NCBI GenBank assembly: GCA_017412115.1
Contig: JAFPYR010000026.1
Coordinates: 1-53,690 of the forward strand
Length of the DNA: 53,690 nt
Origin: Bacteroidales bacterium
GTDB taxonomy: Bacteria > Bacteroidota > Bacteroidia > Bacteroidales > UBA3824
Direction of reading: 5' to 3'
The notes under the pieces were generated by a model. The model was not told the DNA's origin. It searched no databases and was given only the letters and a program-made list of their open reading frames with translations. The position numbers and the translations under genes are program-made. Of this stretch, positions 2,657 through 49,739 are shown piece by piece; position 1 is the stretch's first letter; every line of letters starts with the position of its first letter.

Positions 2657-3232
2657 TTATTTAACGTATTTTCTACTTTCAATGTAGTATACTGGATAAT
2701 AATCTGTTCCGTGTTTTTCCATGTAAGATTTCATAGTTGATAATTGTTTCATTACGCTATGACATCTTTCCATGATTTTACAGTTTTCAGCGGTTGAAGT
2801 GTCAGAAGGCATTTTGGATTTTTGAATCTCTTCGCTTTCCAAAATCCTGCTTTTAGAAATTTTGTTCACTTTAACGATTCCGCTGATAGCGATATTTTTG
2901 TACATGATTTCGCGAGGGAATGTGTCAATTTCGCCACCGACAAAAACTTGCATATTCATTGTGCTGTCATCATCGGCAGAAACAAAGCATTTTTTGCCCG
3001 TACCTTTGCAGACGTGTGTTACTTTTCCTGCTATAATGACTTCTTTATCAAGAAGTTCTTCACCTTTATCAAATATTTGTAGTGGTGTTAATGCGTTTTC
3101 GGGTAATGTAGATTTTTCTTTTTGATTAACGTTTTTTTCGGCTGCGCTCCCTCCCGAATTGCCGGAGCATGCTGACATAAATGCCGCACATACAATCATA
3201 AAAGCCGCTAACGTTCTTTTCATATTTATCAT
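2657..3232 (-). CDS. OB-fold-like exported lipoprotein
   Basis: No certain function. The N-terminus is a lipoprotein signal: a hydrophobic stretch ending FMSAC, so the mature protein would start at that cysteine. A region from about residue 55 (EVIIAGKVTHVC...GKKCFV...QVFVGGEI...ISGIVKVNKI) has the alternating strand pattern of a small OB-fold/tRNA_anti-like domain, as in other Bacteroidetes exported proteins. It contains a conserved-looking pair HVCKGTGKKC that could bind metal or form a disulfide; that is inference. The C-terminal third is helical and charged. A second in-frame ATG three codons later (3223, MKRTLAAF) is an equally good start. Monocistronic, with its own promoter box at 3256-3263. 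Confidence 0.75.
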   Translation of the reverse strand: MINMKRTLAAFMIVCAAFMSACSGNSGGSAAEKNVNQKEKSTLPENALTPLQIFDKGEELLDKEVIIAGKVTHVCKGTGKKCFVSADDDSTMNMQVFVGGEIDTFPREIMYKNIAISGIVKVNKISKSRILESEEIQKSKMPSDTSTAENCKIMERCHSVMKQLSTMKSYMEKHGTDYYPVYYIESRKYVK

Positions 3233-3255
3233 TTTGTATAAGAATTTTGTCGTGG

Positions 3256-3263
3256 CAAATATA
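3256..3263 (-). promoter_or_regulatory. -7 promoter box of OB-fold lipoprotein gene
   Basis: TATATTTG on the minus strand, 23 bases before the ATG at 3232. Confidence 0.6.
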
Positions 3264-3325
3264 AAAAAAATAAATTTTAAAAAAAATACCTTAAATTAAG
3301 TATTGCAGGAAAAAACTAAATATTA

Positions 3326-3333
3326 TAATTTTG
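3326..3333 (+). promoter_or_regulatory. -7 promoter box of TonB receptor gene
   Basis: TAATTTTG, 23 bases before ATG 3357. It lies inside the longer open frame that begins at 3303, so the TonB receptor start must be 3357 or 3360. Confidence 0.65.
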
Positions 3334-3356
3334 CGGAACGAATTATATATATTAAA

Positions 3357-6338
3357 ATGATGAATAACAGACTGTTAACTGTTTTTATCCTGCTTTTTTC
3401 TTTTTTTACGAAAGGTTTTGCTCAGACTTATACGCTTGAAGGTACGGTAAAAAATCTTTCAGATTCTTTGCCCGTGCCGTATGCAGCCGTTGTTTTGGGC
3501 GACAATAGGCTTTGGACGGTTACCGATGAGGTGGGACATTTTTGTATTAAAAATGTTCCTGAAGGTAAAATTAAAATCACCGTTCAGTGTTTGGGCTTTG
3601 TTAAAAGAGAGTTTTTTGTAACAAAGAACATTAACGCGTTGAAAATTTTTTTGCAGGAAGATAATTTGAAAATTTCGCAGGTTACTGTTACCGCACAAAA
3701 AAATACAGCGGGTTTTTCAGCGGCTTATACTTTGGACCGTAAGGCGTTAGACCATCAGCAGATTTTAAATGTCAGCGATGTTAATTCGCTTTTGCCCGGC
3801 GGTAAAACCGTTAATTCTACTCTTATGGACGACAATCGAACTGCCATTAGAAGCGGTTCGTCGGAATTTGGCAATTCATCCTTTGCAACGGCTGTCGAGG
3901 TAGACGGCGCAAGACTTTCCAACAATGCCGAATTAGATGAGACCGCCGGAGCTTCAACACGCAATGTCAGTTCTACGAATATTGAAAGTATTGAAATTAT
4001 AACCGGAATACCTTCAGTAGAGTATGGCGATTTGAGTAATGGAATTGTTAAAGTGCATACAAAAAAAGGAAAAACGCCTTTTGTAATAGATTTTTCAACG
4101 AATCCGTATACTAAACAAGCGGCATTGAGCAAGGGCTTTGATTTGAAAGGCGATGCCGGTGAACTTAATTTATCTTTTGAACATACAAAATCCTTTACCG
4201 ACATTTCAAGTCCGTATACGAGTTATCAAAGAAATGTTTTTGATGTAAAATATTCTAATACTTTTAAGAAAACCACCGAAAATCCGTTGATGTTTTCTTT
4301 TGCGGCAAGCGGTAATTCAGGCGGTTATAATTCAGAGGCAGACCCTGATGCTTTTTCGGAAAATTATACTTATCAGAAGGATTATGTTGCAAGGTTTAAC
4401 TCCAAGATTGCATGGCTTTTGAACAAAAACTGGATAACTAATTTTAATGCTTTTGCCTCGCTTTCTATTGCTGACAAAACCACCGAAACTAATACTAACA
4501 AAAACAGCGCAAGTACTTCGCCGTATGTTCATTCTACTGAGGAGGGTTATTTTATTGCCGCTGATTATGACGCAAATCCGTTGAGCCCGGTGATACTTTC
4601 GCCGACGGGATATTGGTATGTTAAGGAATTTGTAGAGAGCAAACCTTTGGATTTTTCTCTAAAAATAAAAGGTGATTTGGTAAAACATTTTTCATCTTTT
4701 ACCAACAAATTTATGTTAGGTTCGGAGTATACCTCAAGCGGTAATCTTGGGCGCGGAAAATATTATGACGATATGCGTTATGCTCCTGACGGTTGGAGAG
4801 AGTACCGTTATGATTGTCTGCCGTTTATGAATAATCTTGCCGTTTATGCCGAGGACAAAATTTCAGTGCCTTTGGCTCAAAACATCGAAGGGTCGGATTT
4901 GCAAATTACTTTAGGATTAAGAGATGATTTGACCTTAATTTCGGGAAGTGATTACGGCACAGCTTCGTCTTTTTCACCGAGGTTTAGTGCAAAATATATT
5001 TTTTGGCGCGACAAAAAGAAAACCGTAAAAGAACTCAGCGTTTATCTCGGTTACGGAAAAAGTGTTAAACTGCCTTCGTTTCAAGTGCTTTATCCGCGGC
5101 CTTCGTATTATGACCAGCAGGTTTTTTCTTCGACATCTTCTGCCGAGGGAAAAGCTTTTTACGCTTATTACACATATCCTGTTTCAGCTATTAGAAACAA
5201 GGATTTGAAATGGCAGTATTCCAATCAGACAGAAATCGGAGCGGAAATTAATATTTCAGATATAAAAATCTCAATATCAGCCTATTATAACAAAACGGCA
5301 CGCTCTTATATCAGCGTTTATGATTATACGCCTTTTACTTATAACAGAACGTATTCAAGCACTTTGGAAAATTCTCAAATACCCTTGGAAAACCGTATGT
5401 ATTCTATTGACAGAAATTCCGGAGAGGTAACTGTCAGCGACAAAAGTGGTGTTAATCCTGATGAGACGCTTCCTTTTACGCCTAAAAACACTTACAAATC
5501 TGCAACGTTTTTTACAAATTCCAATCCCGTAACACGTTACGGAGCCGATTGGATTATAGATTTTCCGCAGATAAAATTTTTGAAAACGTCTTTGCGTTTG
5601 GACGGAAATTATTACCGTTACGAAGGTGCTAATTCAACGCTTTTGGCTTATTGGCCGAACATGACGTCTTTGAAATCCGACGGAACGCCCTTTGATTATA
5701 TCGGTTATTATGCCGGAAGTTCCAATACTTCAACCTCTTCGGCTGCAACAAATTCTTATTATAACGGAATGTTGAAAAAACAGATTAATCAGAACTGTAC
5801 TTTTATGACACATATTCCGAAAGTCAGAATGATAATCTCGTTGAGATTTGAGGCAACTCTTTACAGATTTTCAAAACTTTTGATTGACGGCGGCGGTTAT
5901 GATGTGGCATACGCTTCGGGAGAAAAAGGTTCAACAACCGGCTTGCCATATAACAAAGATATGAGGGATTTTTATGTTACGGTTTATCCCGTTTATTATT
6001 CTACGAGGGAAAAACCTAACGAACTTATACCTTTTGCCGAAAAATATTTATGGGCAAAGGACAACGATCCTGATTTATATGCCGATCTTACAAAACTCAC
6101 TACTACAACTAATTACGGTTATAATTATAATCCTGAAAAAATTTCGGCATATTACTCCGCCAATTTCAGCATCACCAAAGAAATAGGGGAGAGGGCATCG
6201 CTAAGTTTTTATGCCAACAATTTTTTCTGTCATGATGGTAAAGTAAAATCAAGTAAAACTGGTTTGGATATATCGCTTTACGGTAGCGGTTATATTCCTG
6301 TTTTTTATTACGGAATGTCATTAAGAATTAAATTATGA
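3357..6338 (+). CDS. TonB-dependent outer-membrane receptor with CarboxypepD_reg-like domain
   Basis: Signal peptide (residues 1 to about 23, ending GFAQ), then a carboxypeptidase-D regulatory-like beta-sandwich (TYTLEGTVKN ... VPYAAVVLGDNRLWTVTDEVGHF), a plug domain (SDVNSLLPGGKTV ... VEVDGARLSNN ... IESIEIITGIPSVEYGDLSNG) and a long aromatic-rich beta-barrel to the last residues RIKL. The protein is about 993 residues, normal for the family. It would import a ligand across the outer membrane using TonB energy. The usual SusD partner is absent; instead the stop overlaps the start of a DUF4876 lipoprotein gene by four bases (ATGA), so the two are co-translated. The substrate cannot be read from the sequence. 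MMNN at 3357 or MNNR at 3360 are the possible starts. Confidence 0.9.
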   Translation: MMNNRLLTVFILLFSFFTKGFAQTYTLEGTVKNLSDSLPVPYAAVVLGDNRLWTVTDEVGHFCIKNVPEGKIKITVQCLGFVKREFFVTKNINALKIFLQEDNLKISQVTVTAQKNTAGFSAAYTLDRKALDHQQILNVSDVNSLLPGGKTVNSTLMDDNRTAIRSGSSEFGNSSFATAVEVDGARLSNNAELDETAGASTRNVSSTNIESIEIITGIPSVEYGDLSNGIVKVHTKKGKTPFVIDFSTNPYTKQAALSKGFDLKGDAGELNLSFEHTKSFTDISSPYTSYQRNVFDVKYSNTFKKTTENPLMFSFAASGNSGGYNSEADPDAFSENYTYQKDYVARFNSKIAWLLNKNWITNFNAFASLSIADKTTETNTNKNSASTSPYVHSTEEGYFIAADYDANPLSPVILSPTGYWYVKEFVESKPLDFSLKIKGDLVKHFSSFTNKFMLGSEYTSSGNLGRGKYYDDMRYAPDGWREYRYDCLPFMNNLAVYAEDKISVPLAQNIEGSDLQITLGLRDDLTLISGSDYGTASSFSPRFSAKYIFWRDKKKTVKELSVYLGYGKSVKLPSFQVLYPRPSYYDQQVFSSTSSAEGKAFYAYYTYPVSAIRNKDLKWQYSNQTEIGAEINISDIKISISAYYNKTARSYISVYDYTPFTYNRTYSSTLENSQIPLENRMYSIDRNSGEVTVSDKSGVNPDETLPFTPKNTYKSATFFTNSNPVTRYGADWIIDFPQIKFLKTSLRLDGNYYRYEGANSTLLAYWPNMTSLKSDGTPFDYIGYYAGSSNTSTSSAATNSYYNGMLKKQINQNCTFMTHIPKVRMIISLRFEATLYRFSKLLIDGGGYDVAYASGEKGSTTGLPYNKDMRDFYVTVYPVYYSTREKPNELIPFAEKYLWAKDNDPDLYADLTKLTTTTNYGYNYNPEKISAYYSANFSITKEIGERASLSFYANNFFCHDGKVKSSKTGLDISLYGSGYIPVFYYGMSLRIKL

Positions 6339-7672
6339 AAAAAGTTTTTTACATATTTTTGTTGTTTTTGATAGTATCTTGTGCTGAGGATTTGAACGAA
6401 AACACTATCGAATTTTCGCTTGAAAAACTTGAAATTAAACTTTCATATCCTGAAAATTCAGTTTTAAAAGCACGTAAAGGCGTTTTAGTAACATTAACCG
6501 ACAATTCGGGCGGCGTTTTCAAAAGTTATACTGACGAAACGGGAACGGCTGTTTTTATGGTTCCTTGCGGTGTTTATTCAGCATTTGTCAGCGACAAAAC
6601 CAAAGAAGTTTTGGTTTATAACGGTAAATCTTCAGATATTATAATTACCTCCGGCAGTGTTTTTTCTCAAGAAATTTTACTTGTTGAAACTAATGTTAAT
6701 AGAATTATAATCAAGGAGTTGTATTGTGGCGGCTGTCAAATGGACGACGGTAGCGGTTATACCCGCAACGATAAATACGCCGTTGTTTACAACAATAGTT
6801 CCGATGTTGTTGAAATTAATAATTTTTCGCTTGCCGTTGGAACGCCTTACAATGCAACCGGCACTAATGCCAATTATGTGAAAAACGATTTGGTTTATGC
6901 CAAGGAAGGTTTCATGCCTGCAACGATGGGCATTTGGTATTATCCGGGAAAACTTACTTTTGAACCTTACGAACAAAAAGTAATTTCGATTTATGGGGCG
7001 ATAGATTTTACGAAAACTTATTCCAATTCGGTAAATCTTGCTAACAAGGATTATTATGTGCTTTACGATGAGGATTGTGAACGTTATGCCGGCAATACGG
7101 TTTATTATCCTGCGCCTTACAATGAAATTCCACGAGAGCATTATTTCAAAACAATAGTTTATGGTCAGGGTTCGAGTTGGATTTTCAGCGTAGTATCGCC
7201 GTGTTTTTTTATTTTTTATTTGGACGAAGACCCTGTTGAATTTGCTCAAAAAGAAGAAAATCATTATTTTGACGGTAACAAAAGCGGCTCGTGGGGAAGT
7301 CTCGGCTCATGTCTTAAAATTCCCGTTAAAAATATTCTTGACGGTATCGAAGTTTTTTCGACCCGTTACGATGGCAATCAAAAACGTTTTTCTCCTGAGG
7401 TTGACGGCGGTTATGTTTGGCATACAAATCAATTCGGTTATACTCTTTACCGCAATGTTAATAAAGAGGCGACGGAAAAACTTCCTGAGAACGCAGGAAA
7501 AATTGTTTACGGTTATGATTTAGGCACTTTAGATATCGAAAAAGGTTCAACTGACAAATCGGGCATTGATGCTGAGGCTTCAATGAAAAACGGTGCGCAC
7601 ATAATTTTTTCGGACATTAACAATTCCGGCGAGGATTTTCATCAAAGAAAAAAGGCAGCTATCAAAGATTGA
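6335..7672 (+). CDS. DUF4876-family outer-membrane lipoprotein, partner of TonB receptor
   Basis: The first 16 residues end in a lipobox (FLIVSC), so it is probably a lipoprotein. Residues about 28-115 form an Ig-like/carboxypeptidase-regulatory type sandwich (VLVTLTDNSGGVFKSYTDETGTAVF). From about 120 the motif IIIKELYCGGCQMDDGSGY followed by RNDKYAVVYNNSSDVVEINN is the DUF4876 signature; its layout resembles a lamin-tail-like fold (my inference). The four-base overlap with the TonB receptor upstream indicates an operon and suggests it is the surface or periplasmic partner of that receptor, as SusD is for SusC. Function and ligand are unknown. Confidence 0.85.
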   Translation: MKKVFYIFLLFLIVSCAEDLNENTIEFSLEKLEIKLSYPENSVLKARKGVLVTLTDNSGGVFKSYTDETGTAVFMVPCGVYSAFVSDKTKEVLVYNGKSSDIIITSGSVFSQEILLVETNVNRIIIKELYCGGCQMDDGSGYTRNDKYAVVYNNSSDVVEINNFSLAVGTPYNATGTNANYVKNDLVYAKEGFMPATMGIWYYPGKLTFEPYEQKVISIYGAIDFTKTYSNSVNLANKDYYVLYDEDCERYAGNTVYYPAPYNEIPREHYFKTIVYGQGSSWIFSVVSPCFFIFYLDEDPVEFAQKEENHYFDGNKSGSWGSLGSCLKIPVKNILDGIEVFSTRYDGNQKRFSPEVDGGYVWHTNQFGYTLYRNVNKEATEKLPENAGKIVYGYDLGTLDIEKGSTDKSGIDAEASMKNGAHIIFSDINNSGEDFHQRKKAAIKD

Positions 7673-7701
7673 TAACCGCCCTCTTTCTTTTTTTTAAAGG
7701 A

Positions 7702-9108
7702 TTATTTCTTTTCTAATAGGATTACGTTTTCCACGTGATGCGTTTGCGGAAACATATCCACCGGCTGAATTTTCTTAACGGCGTATTTTTCGTCCAAAAG
7801 TTGAACGTCCCGCGCTTGAGTTGCCGGATTGCAACTTACGTAAACTATTCTTTGAGGTGCGGCGTTGAGAATCGTTTTTATAACATCGGGGTGAACTCCG
7901 GCTCTCGGGGGATCAAGAATTATGACCTCGGGTTTGCCGTTTTGGTTAATAAATTCCTCCGTTAAAACGTCTTTCATATCGCCGGCATAGAATTTCGTAT
8001 TGGTAATTCCGTTTAATCCGCTGTTGATTTTTGCGTCCTCAATAGCCTCTTCAATGTATTCAATGCCAATGACTTGTAAGGCTTTGTCAGCAACGAAATT
8101 TGCAATTGTTCCCGTTCCTGTATAAAGGTCGTAAACTATTTCTTTGCCGCTAAGACCTGCAAATTCTTTTGCAACCGAGTACAATTTGAAGGCTTGAAGA
8201 GAGTTTGTCTGATAAAAACTTTTAGCTTGAACCTTAAATTTCAAACCGCCTAACTCTTCAATTATGTGGTCTTTACCGTGATAAAATTTCGCTTCCAAAT
8301 CCGAATAATCGCTGTTGCGTTTAGGATTGATAAAATACATCAGCGAAGTAATTTGCGGAAATTTTTCTATTAAGTGGTTCAGCAATAATTCACGTTTTTC
8401 TTTGTCTTCAAATGCAAAAACAATAATTACCATAAGTTCCTGATTAACAGAACTTCTGATAATAATATTGCGCAAAAATCCTGTCTGTTCTTTGAGGTTG
8501 AAAAAATCAAAACCTTGTTCCAAACAGAATTTTTTTATCTCCAAACGGATTTCGTTTGAAGGCTCGGCTTGAAGGCAACATTTTTTTATGTCCAAAACCT
8601 TGTCAAAACGTCCGGGGATATGAAATCCCAAACCTTGAAGCAGTTTTTCTGAGTCGGGAACCTCCATTTCCTCAGCCGAAAGCCAACGTTGTGAGGCAAA
8701 GGTAAATTCCAATTTGTTGCGGTAAAAATACTGATTGTCAGAGGGCAGAATCGGCTGTAATTCAGGGATTTCCACTTTTGCAATATGCGTTAAAGCGTCT
8801 TCTACCTGTTGCTGTTTGTATTTTAACTGTAATTTGTAAGGCAGCATTTGCCAAACGCAACCGCCGCAAATTCCGAAATGTTCGCATTGAGGAGTTTCCC
8901 TTTCAGAGGAAAACTTCTTGAAATTTTCCACAACAGCCTCGCGAAAGTTTTTTTTGCGTTTAACGGTCTTAATATCAACGACATCGCCCGGCACAGCACC
9001 TTTTATAAAAAAGACGATATTGTCAATTTTGGCGATTGCTTTGCCCTCGGCTGCGATGTCTGTTACGAGAACATCTTCAAAAATTTCTCCTGTTCTTTTT
9101 TTGCGCAT
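7702..9108 (-). CDS. rlmD: 23S rRNA (uracil-5-)-methyltransferase, RlmD/RumA family
   Basis: SAM-dependent m5U methyltransferase. An N-terminal TRAM domain (about residues 1-60) is followed by the iron-sulfur cysteines C75, C81 and C84 (CEHFGICGGC) and a later cysteine in DIKKCC. The Rossmann domain contains VYDLYTGTGTIANF, the ILDPPRAGVHP motif and the catalytic loop VSCNPATQARD with its nucleophilic cysteine. Length (468) is typical of the Bacteroidetes enzymes. The exact uracil modified (U1939 in E. coli RlmD, or another in RNA or tRNA) cannot be decided from sequence alone. It lies nine bases downstream of the DUF4293 gene and is probably co-transcribed with it. Confidence 0.9.
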   Translation of the reverse strand: MRKKRTGEIFEDVLVTDIAAEGKAIAKIDNIVFFIKGAVPGDVVDIKTVKRKKNFREAVVENFKKFSSERETPQCEHFGICGGCVWQMLPYKLQLKYKQQQVEDALTHIAKVEIPELQPILPSDNQYFYRNKLEFTFASQRWLSAEEMEVPDSEKLLQGLGFHIPGRFDKVLDIKKCCLQAEPSNEIRLEIKKFCLEQGFDFFNLKEQTGFLRNIIIRSSVNQELMVIIVFAFEDKEKRELLLNHLIEKFPQITSLMYFINPKRNSDYSDLEAKFYHGKDHIIEELGGLKFKVQAKSFYQTNSLQAFKLYSVAKEFAGLSGKEIVYDLYTGTGTIANFVADKALQVIGIEYIEEAIEDAKINSGLNGITNTKFYAGDMKDVLTEEFINQNGKPEVIILDPPRAGVHPDVIKTILNAAPQRIVYVSCNPATQARDVQLLDEKYAVKKIQPVDMFPQTHHVENVILLEKK

Positions 9109-46424: not shown

Positions 46425-47186
46425 ATGAATGTTTGTCATAAAATAATTGCTGAATTTAAGGCTTTGGAAAACGAAAAACAACGGAAGAGTTTAATGCGTT
46501 TTTTCAAGACCGATAAAGGTGAATACGGCGAGGGCGACAAGTTTTTAGGACTTACTAACCCTCAGTCGAGAGAATTTGTGAAAAAATATTATAAGGACGT
46601 AGAACTATCTGATATAGAATTACTTATTAGAAATGAATACCATGAAATAAGATTTTGCGGTTTTATGATTTTGGTCGAAAAATTTTTGAAACTTTTTCCT
46701 AAGCGTAAACTTTTTTCCGATGGGGACGGTATTAGAAAAAGGGACGAAATCATGAAAATTTATCTCGATAATTCCACTTATGCTAATAATTGGGATTTGG
46801 TGGATATGACTGCGCCAAAACTTTTGGGCAAATGGTATTTTGCGGAATCTTTTGTTCCGTTTTTAGAAAAAGAAAGCATCGTTGAAAAATTCTCTTTCAG
46901 CGATAATCTTTGGCAAAGGCGTATTTCAATGGTTTTTACATGGATGACAACACGTGAGGGACACCCGGAAATAGCTTTAAAACAAGCACTTATACATATT
47001 TCTGATAAACATGATTTAATGCAGAAGGCAGTAGGGTGGATGCTTCGTGAGGTTGGAAAAATTTGTTCGGAGGATTTGTTAAGAGAGTTTTTGGAAGATA
47101 ATTTTTCAAAACTTTCACGGACTTCGCTTCGTTATGCAATAGAAAAATTTAGTGAAAAAGAACGTAAATATTGGTTAGAAAAATGA
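46425..47186 (+). CDS. AlkD-like DNA alkylation repair protein (HEAT-repeat)
   Basis: 253 residues of helical repeats. Family marks: KFLGLTNPQSREFVKKY, EYHEIRFCGFMILVEKF, NNWDLVDMTAPKLLGKW, WQRRISMVFTWM and LMQKAVGWMLREVGK. Such proteins excise N3- and N7-alkylated bases. The DLVD and WMLRE segments correspond to the DNA-facing residues of AlkD. The stop overlaps the pflA start (ATGA). Confidence 0.88.
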   Translation: MNVCHKIIAEFKALENEKQRKSLMRFFKTDKGEYGEGDKFLGLTNPQSREFVKKYYKDVELSDIELLIRNEYHEIRFCGFMILVEKFLKLFPKRKLFSDGDGIRKRDEIMKIYLDNSTYANNWDLVDMTAPKLLGKWYFAESFVPFLEKESIVEKFSFSDNLWQRRISMVFTWMTTREGHPEIALKQALIHISDKHDLMQKAVGWMLREVGKICSEDLLREFLEDNFSKLSRTSLRYAIEKFSEKERKYWLEK

Positions 47187-47893
47187 TAGGTAAAATTCAC
47201 TCGCTTGAAAGTTTCGGTACAGTAGACGGTCCGGGTATAAGGTATGTTGTTTTTATGCAAGGTTGTCCTATGCGGTGTTTGTTTTGTCATAATCCCGATA
47301 CGTGGAATTTTGGTGCAAAAACCAAATACGAAATGACTCCGGAAGAACTTTTTAAAGAGGTTTACCGTTATAAAAATTTTATAAAATCGGGAGGTGTAAC
47401 GCTTTCGGGCGGCGAGCCTTTGATGCAGCCGGAGTTTGCGGAGGAGTTTTTCAAACTTTGTAAGCGTAAAAATATTCATACTGCACTTGACACCTCAGGT
47501 GTGATTTTTTCTCAAAAGGCTGTTGACGTGTTGAAATATACGGATTTGGTTTTGTTGGACATAAAAACTGCCGACGATAATCTTCACGAAAAATATACGG
47601 GTCAGACAAGGGAAAACAACAAAAAGTTTTTGGAGTTTTTGCAGGAAATTTCAAAACCGGTATGGATCAGACACGTTGTGGTTCCTGGTTATACTTTTAA
47701 TGAAGAAAGGTTGAAATCTTTGGCGGAATATTTGTCGCAATTCTCTGTTATTGAGAAAATAGAATTGCTGCCTTATCATACTATGGGCAAATTTAAATAC
47801 GAAAATCTCGGTATTGATTATCCGCTTGAAGGTGTTAAGGATTTAACGGCGGACGAACTTAAAACGGCGGAGAGTTTTTTTATTCTTCAATAA
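47183..47893 (+). CDS. pflA: Pyruvate formate-lyase activating enzyme
   Basis: Radical SAM activase that puts the glycyl radical on PflB. The CX3CX2C cluster is C28, C32, C35 (GCPMRCLFCHN), preceded by ESFGTVDGPGIRYVVF, followed by VTLSGGEPLMQPEF, LDTSGVI, DIKTAD and WIRHVVVPGYT. Start at 47183, overlapping the AlkD-like stop by four bases, gives 236 residues; the ATG-less upstream extension is unlikely. pflB itself is not in the window. Its last 14 bases overlap the convergent prodomain gene. Confidence 0.92.
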   Translation: MIGKIHSLESFGTVDGPGIRYVVFMQGCPMRCLFCHNPDTWNFGAKTKYEMTPEELFKEVYRYKNFIKSGGVTLSGGEPLMQPEFAEEFFKLCKRKNIHTALDTSGVIFSQKAVDVLKYTDLVLLDIKTADDNLHEKYTGQTRENNKKFLEFLQEISKPVWIRHVVVPGYTFNEERLKSLAEYLSQFSVIEKIELLPYHTMGKFKYENLGIDYPLEGVKDLTADELKTAESFFILQ

Positions 47894-48449
47894 ATTCTTC
47901 GCCTTGAAGAAATTTTATGGCAGGACTGTTTGAAATTTTTTCTTTGAAATCATCTATTGCAGTTTTAGTTGTGTCTAATAAATGAACTTCGACGGTATTA
48001 TCCCACTGCGAAGCAAACCACAATGTTATATTTGCCGAAGTTGAATTTTTATTATTTTTTACATAATCCGTTATTGAATCCATTAACTCATTTAACTCAG
48101 CTAACGAGTATTTGCATTTAACGAATTTAATTTTGCCGTTATTTCTTTTTTTATCAACGATTTTAGGTCCGATTGTCGTATCGCCTTTAACCATAATCGT
48201 TAAATTTCCGTGTTCGTCCATGAATCCGCCGCCGTAATATTCTTCGTAAAGCGATTTGGATTTTGAGGTTTTGGGCTTAGAAATTTCCGTCAAAATTTCG
48301 TTAGCCTCAATTTGTTCATCCATAGCAACTTCTTCTTCAGGATTGAATTCAGGAATTTCAATCCTTATAGGAGTGTTAGTGTTTTCCGTATTGTTGCAAG
48401 ATGAAAAAATGAAACTTGCAAGCAAAAATAATGTTATGTAACTTTTCAT
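47880..48449 (-). CDS. Lipoprotein consisting only of the serine-protease prodomain (duplicate)
   Basis: 189 residues, colinear without gaps with residues 1-189 of the adjacent protease lipoprotein. The lipobox ends FSSC (C18). Identity: 116 of 124 positions at the N-terminal part, 20 of 50 at 125-174, and all 15 of the last (SPAIKFLQGEEFIEE). It stops exactly where the protease's peptidase domain begins. The prodomain-like part has DEHGNLTIMVKGD and KFVKCKYSLAELNELMDSI. It could act as an inhibitor or folding partner of the protease, or be a truncated copy; both are inference. A hairpin terminator (48463-48492) lies between it and the protease gene. Confidence 0.8.
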   Translation of the reverse strand: MKSYITLFLLASFIFSSCNNTENTNTPIRIEIPEFNPEEEVAMDEQIEANEILTEISKPKTSKSKSLYEEYYGGGFMDEHGNLTIMVKGDTTIGPKIVDKKRNNGKIKFVKCKYSLAELNELMDSITDYVKNNKNSTSANITLWFASQWDNTVEVHLLDTTKTAIDDFKEKISNSPAIKFLQGEEFIEE

Positions 48450-48462
48450 TTTGTTGTTCGAT

Positions 48463-48492
48463 TAAAAAACGAGCCGTAATGTATACGGCTCG
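48463..48492 (-). terminator. Terminator between protease gene and prodomain gene
   Basis: Stem CGAGCCGTA / TACGGCTCG, 5-base loop, then a six-base T-run on the minus strand. It lies 11 bases after the protease stop and 14 before the prodomain start codon. Confidence 0.85.
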
Positions 48493-48503
48493 AAATAATA
48501 TTG

Positions 48504-49685
48504 TTAATACCGTTCTAAATTTAATGTCGATAATACATTTGACGCTTTTGAATAGACTTTATAGCCTTTGTACATACCTCTGTGTACACCGACGGTATAG
48601 CGTGTTGATGTTTTGCTGACATAAGTATAAATAATGCCGCCGCTATCACCTTCATCACTATCGTAGGTTGCGCTAGTCATATTTGAGAGTTTTATACCTT
48701 GAGGTGTTATAATCCTATAATTAGTATTTATTACAGACCCTGTACTATGTCCTGTCGTTGCACCTCGTAGGTTAACGATACTCCCTTTGCCTGGAAGACT
48801 TGTTGTCGTAGATAATTTGTCAGGATATGAATTACTTAAATAATTACTTGGTGTGAAATTATTTGTATCGTTAACAGATATAAATGCGGCATCAATACTA
48901 CCGCCTAAAACTGACTGTGTACATATCCCTACTTCGTCATAACCTAAATATGCTTTTCCGTTGACTGCAATAACATGTGCAGCTGTTACCATTCCGACTC
49001 TGTGATTTCCGAACTTTTCCCGTGCTCTAAAACCGTATGAACCGTATGGCGGCTCTTTAATTGTAGTGCCGGTTATTTTTTGTTTAGATAATTTACTACC
49101 GGAATATAAATGTGTATTTTCCTCAATAAATTCTTCTCCTTGAAGAAATTTTATGGCAGGACTATCGGACACTTTTTTTTTAAACTCTTTTATCGCAGAA
49201 TATGAGGTGTCGAATAAACATACTTCTAAAACGTTATCATCTTCAGATACTCCCCATGCTGAAAGATTCTTTGTAACAGCATCTTTATTATTATCAAAAT
49301 ATCTATCAACAATATCCATTAACTCATTTAACTCTGCTAACGAGTATTTGCATTTAACGAATTTAATTTTGCCGTTATTTCTTTTTTTATCAACGATTTT
49401 AGGTCCGATTGCCGTATCGCCTTTAACCATAATCGTTAAATTCCCGTGTTTGTCCATGAATCCGCCGCCGTAATATTCTTCGTAAAGCGATTTGGATTTT
49501 GCGGTTTTGGGCTGAGAAATTTCCGTCAAAATTTCGTTAGCTTCAATTTGTTCATCCATAGCAACTTCTTCTTCAGGATTGAATTCAGGAATTTCAATCC
49601 TTATAGGAGTGTTAGTGTTTTCCGTATTGTTGCAAGCCGTAAAAATGAAACTTGCAAGCAAAAATAATGTTATGTATCTTCTCAT
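48504..49685 (-). CDS. Lipoprotein with prodomain and chymotrypsin-fold serine protease domain
   Basis: 393 residues. Lipobox FTAC (C18), acidic linker (about 20-65), an about 115-residue N-terminal domain that resembles the propeptide of streptogrisin-like proteases, and a peptidase domain from about 190. The triad is H237 in VTAAHV, D265 in GSIDAAFI and S348 in DEGDSGGIIY, all intact, so it should be an active S1-type peptidase anchored at the outer membrane or surface. Only the first 189 residues are shared with the following gene. No -7 box is visible between its start and the terminator hairpin at 49709-49739, so expression may depend on read-through from the ilv operon. Confidence 0.85.
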   Translation of the reverse strand: MRRYITLFLLASFIFTACNNTENTNTPIRIEIPEFNPEEEVAMDEQIEANEILTEISQPKTAKSKSLYEEYYGGGFMDKHGNLTIMVKGDTAIGPKIVDKKRNNGKIKFVKCKYSLAELNELMDIVDRYFDNNKDAVTKNLSAWGVSEDDNVLEVCLFDTSYSAIKEFKKKVSDSPAIKFLQGEEFIEENTHLYSGSKLSKQKITGTTIKEPPYGSYGFRAREKFGNHRVGMVTAAHVIAVNGKAYLGYDEVGICTQSVLGGSIDAAFISVNDTNNFTPSNYLSNSYPDKLSTTTSLPGKGSIVNLRGATTGHSTGSVINTNYRIITPQGIKLSNMTSATYDSDEGDSGGIIYTYVSKTSTRYTVGVHRGMYKGYKVYSKASNVLSTLNLERY

Positions 49686-49708: not shown

Positions 49709-49739
49709 TTAGACTGTCTAAAAATTTTAGACAGTCTAA
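49709..49739 (-). terminator. Perfect palindromic hairpin, likely terminator of the ilv-Dabb transcript
   Basis: TTAGACTGTCTAAAA is followed by one base and its exact complement TTTTAGACAGTCTAA. Each arm is itself nearly palindromic (AGAC-N-GTCT). On the minus strand it is followed by TTTTTT. It also resembles a doubled operator, so it could double as one for the protease gene. Confidence 0.7.

Follow-up and report, generated by a model that had tools for sequence, protein, structure and literature searches.

On contig JAFPYR010000026.1 of a Bacteroidales bacterium, which was analysed over its full length of 53,690 nucleotides (the window), a gene for a serine protease precursor of the alpha-lytic type (P0001) is followed 54 bases downstream, likewise on the minus strand, by a short gene encoding the prodomain of such a protease as a separate predicted lipoprotein (P0002). 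The short gene product may well be a membrane-tethered inhibitor which acts in trans and protects its producer from proteases of this family, probably as an immunity protein; judged from the sequences and from analogous systems we give this interpretation about an even chance. It is based on homology to the propeptide, on the end point of the short protein, on the recurrence of free prodomains beside proteases and on purifying selection in a block of 50 residues, as well as on the pro-region fold predicted for a free homologue. The two genes are composed as follows.

48504..49685, minus strand: S1 (alpha-lytic-type) serine protease precursor, 393 amino acids, with a lipoprotein-type signal (Cys18 by eye)
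49314..49685, minus strand: protease residues 1–124 (signal, lipobox and N-terminal part of the pro region; common flank), with 8 differences from the short copy
49164..49313, minus strand: protease residues 125–174 (block, form A), modelled as a helix end, a short helix, two strands and a helix
49119..49163, minus strand: protease residues 175–189 (common 3' flank; last strand and tail), with the predicted P1 residue Glu189 at the end and low model confidence at 186–189
48582..48584, minus strand: His368 in a GxHxG strand, by sequence the presumed equivalent of His213 of Glu-specific proteases
47880..48449, minus strand: free prodomain, predicted lipoprotein of 189 amino acids without peptidase domain (Cys18 by eye)
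48078..48449, minus strand: free prodomain residues 1–124 (putatively homogenised flank), from DNA and protein comparison with the protease
47928..48077, minus strand: free prodomain residues 125–174 (block, form B), from block comparison and tree
47883..47927, minus strand: free prodomain residues 175–189, in protein the same as in the protease, with two silent DNA differences

The catalytic triad of the protease (His237, Asp265 and Ser348) lies in invariant alignment columns, and the protein combines a two-barrel chymotrypsin fold with an N-terminal pro region of alpha-lytic fold. Mature alpha-lytic protease aligns to the model of the window protease from residue 191, so that the short gene stops at the peptidase border, exactly as a preliminary description of this DNA had stated. 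In predicted fold and in end point, a free homologue agrees with the alpha-lytic pro region (PDB 2pro, 3pro and 4pro); the free protein lacks a catalytic domain and has an export signal of its own, recognised by eye. The Pfam family Pro_Al_protease (PF02983) matched neither P0001 nor P0002 up to an E-value of 10 and none of P0062–P0068 up to 1. Five free prodomains that were scanned (P0002, P0063, P0065, P0066 and P0068) had no Pfam family above its cut-off, and those on annotated records (P0003, P0063, P0065, P0066 and P0069) carry the name "hypothetical". The role of His213 in Glu-specific proteases is taken from the literature. In the alignment the GxHxG strand covaries with a Glu that precedes the mature domain (25/28 versus 0/6; with four more proteases 25/30 versus 1/8), both the cleavage and the pocket being predicted.

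The two copies form a mosaic. At the protein level they differ at 8 of 124 positions in residues 1–124, at 30 of 50 in the block and at none of the 15 positions 175–189, counts which the preliminary description had given correctly; at the DNA level the identity is 96.8 % in codons 1–124, 54 % in codons 125–174 and 95.6 % in codons 175–189. The claim that such a pattern does not arise by drift was borne out: 20,000 random placements of the differences put at most 23 of them into one stretch of 50 residues, and 5,000 placements with weights from the site variability of the family at most 21, compared with the 30 observed. In the left flank (codons 1–124) the synonymous divergence (dS) between the two copies of the genome is 0.054, versus 0.62–0.63 to the sister species G009, and in comparison with G009 six neighbouring genes have values of 0.04–0.16, one of 0.26 and the block of the short copy of 0.27. 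Since the left flank thus lies far above the neighbouring genes and the block less so, the left flank appears to have been replaced or converted in each lineage, and the block to a lesser extent. These sequence comparisons fit a homogenisation of the left flank within each lineage, by gene conversion or block exchange, which the block escapes. The preliminary description had proposed conversion for both flanks; for the 3' flank this is unsupported, as the last 15 codons (45 bases) contain two silent differences (dS 0.29 on 8.3 sites) and the short copy matches G009 exactly there. A pair with the same left border as in the window is formed by P0003 and P0004, both of 189 amino acids and identical except for 27 sites, all of which lie within 125–167.

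As an alternative to conversion it had been suggested that the block is hypervariable and under diversifying selection. Hypervariability was rejected, as the mean entropy of the family is flat across the regions (1.58 for residues 19–124, 1.61 for 125–174 and 1.51 for 175–189); diversifying selection is unsupported for the block form of the short copy, which also occurs in proteases and is as conserved there as the flanks. Furthermore, three nonsynonymous versus seven synonymous changes in the block of the short copy since the split from G009 (binomial p 0.001 against the site proportions) show purifying selection, on ten changes only. The frame of the short gene is open in the window genome and in G009, and a relaxed or frameshifted state of the short copy, which would have counted against the preliminary proposal, was not found. 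The absence of homologous pairs elsewhere, named there as another such point, did not come true either, as such pairs exist (see below); two of the three refuting outcomes listed there have therefore not occurred.

Within the genus, form B of the block is tight (P0002, P0003, P0005/P0008 and P0009; 68–94 % identity among the distinct ones) and has a clade support of 97 % in the block tree. Form A comprises the looser rest (P0001, P0004, P0006 and P0007; 48–60 %). It was rejected as a supported clade and is not cleanly set off, as the identity between the forms (36–52 %) overlaps its own range. P0008 is complete as a protease, and the database sequence of the protease P0009 ends before the catalytic Ser; form B is therefore a form of protease pro regions and did not first arise in the short gene. 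In the left-flank tree P0003 groups with P0004 (84 %) and this pair with the B protease P0009 (74 %); P0001 and P0002 are adjacent on near-zero branches. For form A diversifying selection is conceivable: P0001 and P0004 share 28 of 50 positions in the block, against 93 of 106 for the left flank. In peptidase residues 216–345, proteases of like block type have identities of 0.61–0.67 versus 0.52–0.59 for unlike ones (five proteases only), and the B-type peptidase pair has a tree support of 60 % versus 97 % for the B block; that the block form tracks the peptidase type is suggested by these values, and we do not claim it. P0004 and P0005 are taken as free genes from the length of their database entries. 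P0005 (192 amino acids) is identical to the pro region of P0008 and ends after the same Glu-Glu, perhaps having been truncated there independently. In a B-block protease of G007 (L008, 889-2079) a TGA lies inside the peptidase domain, with the pro region open.

Pairs of a protease and a free prodomain recur outside the window. Among 72,556 plasmids (leaving aside four records that carry Streptomyces or Nonomuraea peptidases) they are found on a Bacteroides finegoldii plasmid, with protease P0062 and the overlapping free prodomain P0063, and on a B. ovatus plasmid, with P0064 and P0065; both plasmids are small and typed as mobilizable, and their free prodomains are long diverged with intact frames. 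On contig C30 of the window genome a peptidase remnant of 61 amino acids is directly followed by a free prodomain lipoprotein of 157 amino acids (P0068), the closest comparison of which is P0054 (33 % over 109 columns). Of the 11 loci in which a protease or remnant has a readable downstream gene, four have a free prodomain there (the window, C30 and the two plasmids), two a Big_14-like protein (MT836595 and Segatella, both below the Pfam cut-off) and two orthologous ones another lipoprotein (C116 and G009:C82). A plasmid of Parabacteroides distasonis encodes P0070, in which an Ig-like Big_14 domain is joined to a prodomain, and then P0069; one Phocaeicola record holds a broken piece only. When six free prodomains served as queries in a protein search, 74 matches were obtained, 68 of them new. 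Among these, 47 have 150–230 amino acids and no GDSG motif, many of them near-identical; by a short motif 42 are of the Parabacteroides type and five of the B. finegoldii type.

The genome searches scored a few candidates per genome, so that absences are weak. With the best four scored, P0001 matched two of 393 genomes of the order, both of this genus, and in the class-wide search only the window genome, while the class-wide A3 search added two genomes with weak matches (G471 and G567). With the best five scored, alignment A7 matched seven of 344 genomes of the order, two of this genus; four of the other five were judged unrelated (three N-terminal signal-type matches and one other trypsin-like protein), the fifth being G260. 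The viral contigs scanned contained no match.

Several neighbouring arrangements were seen in passing. The human faecal scaffold MT836595.1 (L049), filed as phage, encodes at 4821-9069 in a row a MACPF protein (PF01823, MACPF_D2, MACPF_D3), an S1 protease of the window family, a Big_14-like lipoprotein and a DUF5036 protein, possibly a toxin cluster. At 2791-3822 of NZ_OY725769.1 (L048) a predicted lipoprotein with a Big_14 Ig-like and a prodomain-like C-terminal part precedes a second free prodomain, and no protease was seen in the 8 kb read. At L018 (3664-4466) and L019 (4107-4888), in both species, a like peptidase remnant (open frame of 80–87 amino acids) is directly followed by a lipoprotein of 178 amino acids without Pfam match (P0073), for which an Ig-like nature was unsupported. 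P0125 (316 amino acids) has a prodomain and a C-terminal part without GDSG motif and is perhaps an inactive protease.

The alpha-lytic pro region inhibits its enzyme. The neighbouring protease would be exported as a lipid-anchored zymogen, cut itself after Glu189 and be released. The free pro region would retain the pro fold, and the same C-terminal Glu could fit the S1 pocket of the enzyme as a product-like plug. The block forms much of the C-terminal subdomain, which packs on the enzyme in alpha-lytic protease, and likely sets the best-fitting protease variant, while the left flank would be kept alike by gene conversion. For a predicted toxin-immunity pair only the location on the two small plasmids typed as mobilizable speaks. 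Rather unlikely is the wider idea of a mobile polymorphic protease-immunity system of Bacteroidota, in which the protease would be an inter-strain weapon, the pro region, after duplication, would have become a separate lipid-anchored immunity protein, and the block would be an exchangeable specificity cassette between constant gene-converted flanks by which strains match or evade each other's proteases; orphan prodomains would then be immunity genes that outlasted the weapon.

A number of observations weigh against the proposed inhibitor. The short copy has block form B and its neighbour form A, so it is possibly not the cognate partner. The Glu-His rule is broken by three of four proteases outside the alignment (P0064, P0067 and P0071). 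A Glu-Glu end is confined to P0002–P0005; P0063 ends with Glu, P0065 with Ile, P0066 with Asn, P0068 with Asp and P0069 with His. In the model of P0001 the placement of prodomain and peptidase relative to each other is unreliable (predicted template modelling score, pTM, 0.54). Three of the 11 loci (G001, G007 and pRGF00040) have no partner, and at three loci a free prodomain has no protease nearby (G009:C136, the P. distasonis plasmid and, with P0066, a Chryseobacterium plasmid). G009 has one gene at the window locus, the free prodomain, and no protease; no intact protease of the window family was found in this genome. Co-expression of the two window genes is uncertain because of a terminator-like hairpin between them. 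However, a similar hairpin lies directly upstream of the protease, so the intergenic one is not simply to be read as silencing. The features concerned, together with the 3' junction of the short gene, are the following.

48470..48492, minus strand: terminator-like hairpin of 9 pairs with a T run, between the protease stop and the ATG of the short gene
49709..49739, minus strand: terminator-like hairpin with a T run, directly upstream of the protease ATG
47880..47893, no strand: 14-base overlap of the 3' ends of the short gene and the convergent gene (47171-47893, plus strand), which we take to be pflA-like (radical-SAM activase-like)

Both hairpins stand about 20–25 bases before an ATG, leaving scant space for an ordinary promoter.

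The position of the short gene's stop codon at the pflA junction raises the question of a remnant, i.e. a B-type protease stripped of its peptidase domain at the pflA 3' end and merely tidied by gene conversion with its neighbour. Among 13 pflA loci examined, the pflA end is readable in ten besides the window, and the nine other than G009 have other C-termini; form B is otherwise found in proteases, a hairpin precedes the short gene, and peptidase remnants are present at C30, C116 and G009:C82. This explanation is nevertheless doubtful, as the block shows purifying selection after the divergence from G009, both species have kept the frame open, the truncation coincides with the border between pro and mature parts, and the long-diverged prodomains of the plasmid pairs have kept their frames. 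A further possibility, confined to the window locus, is that free prodomains arise when recombination between two direct repeats removes the protease, the free-copy-only state being a by-product. The leader of the single G009 gene shares the 11-mer AAACAATTAAA with the leader of the protease copy and not with that of the short copy, as expected for a gene composed of a protease 5' end and a short-gene 3' end that such a deletion would leave, and the restriction of the P0003/P0004 differences to 125–167 is expected for crossovers in either flank. However, this covers G009 and perhaps P0004 and leaves the plasmid pairs and the selection on the block unexplained; the possibility is quite improbable.

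The free pro region might also aid the folding of the neighbouring protease instead of inhibiting it. As a catalyst of folding, the alpha-lytic pro region brings a 10^9-fold acceleration (PMC2829044), and its fold is also predicted for a free homologue. Such a foldase in trans is improbable, since the protease has a complete pro region of its own, whereas free prodomains exist without a protease nearby and bear their own export signals.

Stand-alone propeptide-like inhibitors are already known as a kind. The following systems support the proposed inhibitor by analogy and not by membership. Spi of Streptococcus pyogenes is a propeptide analogue beside SpeB and its specific inhibitor (as cited in PMC2873492); it resembles the window pair in that a free propeptide-like protein is encoded beside a protease, but SpeB is a cysteine protease of family C10 and not an S1 protease of alpha-lytic type with a predicted lipoprotein partner. 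Bfi1A, Bfi1B and Bfi4 of Bacteroides fragilis adjoin C10 proteases, and self-protection was proposed (PMC2873492). Here the likeness lies in Bacteroides, in the location of some proteases on mobile elements and in predicted Sec or lipoprotein inhibitors at most 35 bp from lipoprotein proteases, whereas the Bfi proteins are staphostatin-like, without significant identity to propeptides, and the proteases are of another family. With SUB1-ProM of malaria parasites and further stand-alone mimics of subtilisin propeptides the window pair shares a stand-alone propeptide-like gene in the protease locus (PMC6993865); these systems differ in subtilisin family S8, a eukaryotic host and another propeptide fold. 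In alpha-lytic protease itself the zymogen includes the pro region, unlike the free-standing short gene. The earlier remark that no system of such a layout was described thus holds for this protease family in the literature searched and not for the layout, which is similar in Spi/SpeB and SUB1-ProM/SUB1. Searches of the open literature (most subscription journals were outside their scope) did not turn up a prodomain gene of alpha-lytic type that stands free; new as far as they show is a free alpha-lytic-type pro region, predicted to be a lipoprotein, that recurs beside its protease on mobilizable plasmids, with a block escaping conversion. If the proposed inhibitor is real, bacteria of gut and rumen have turned the pro region of alpha-lytic-type proteases, a classic catalyst of folding, into a gene of its own with a membrane-anchored product, which travels on small plasmids together with the protease. 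Such a gene would then provide natural inhibitors for a gut protease family, a candidate layer of Bacteroidales competition, and a test case of gene conversion sparing the part that could decide specificity.

On the other side of the gene pair lie what are presumably ilvBH and a small Dabb-like gene. The closest named relative found for the genus is a Bacteroidales metagenome-assembled genome from sheep rumen (JAFYDK010000037.1).
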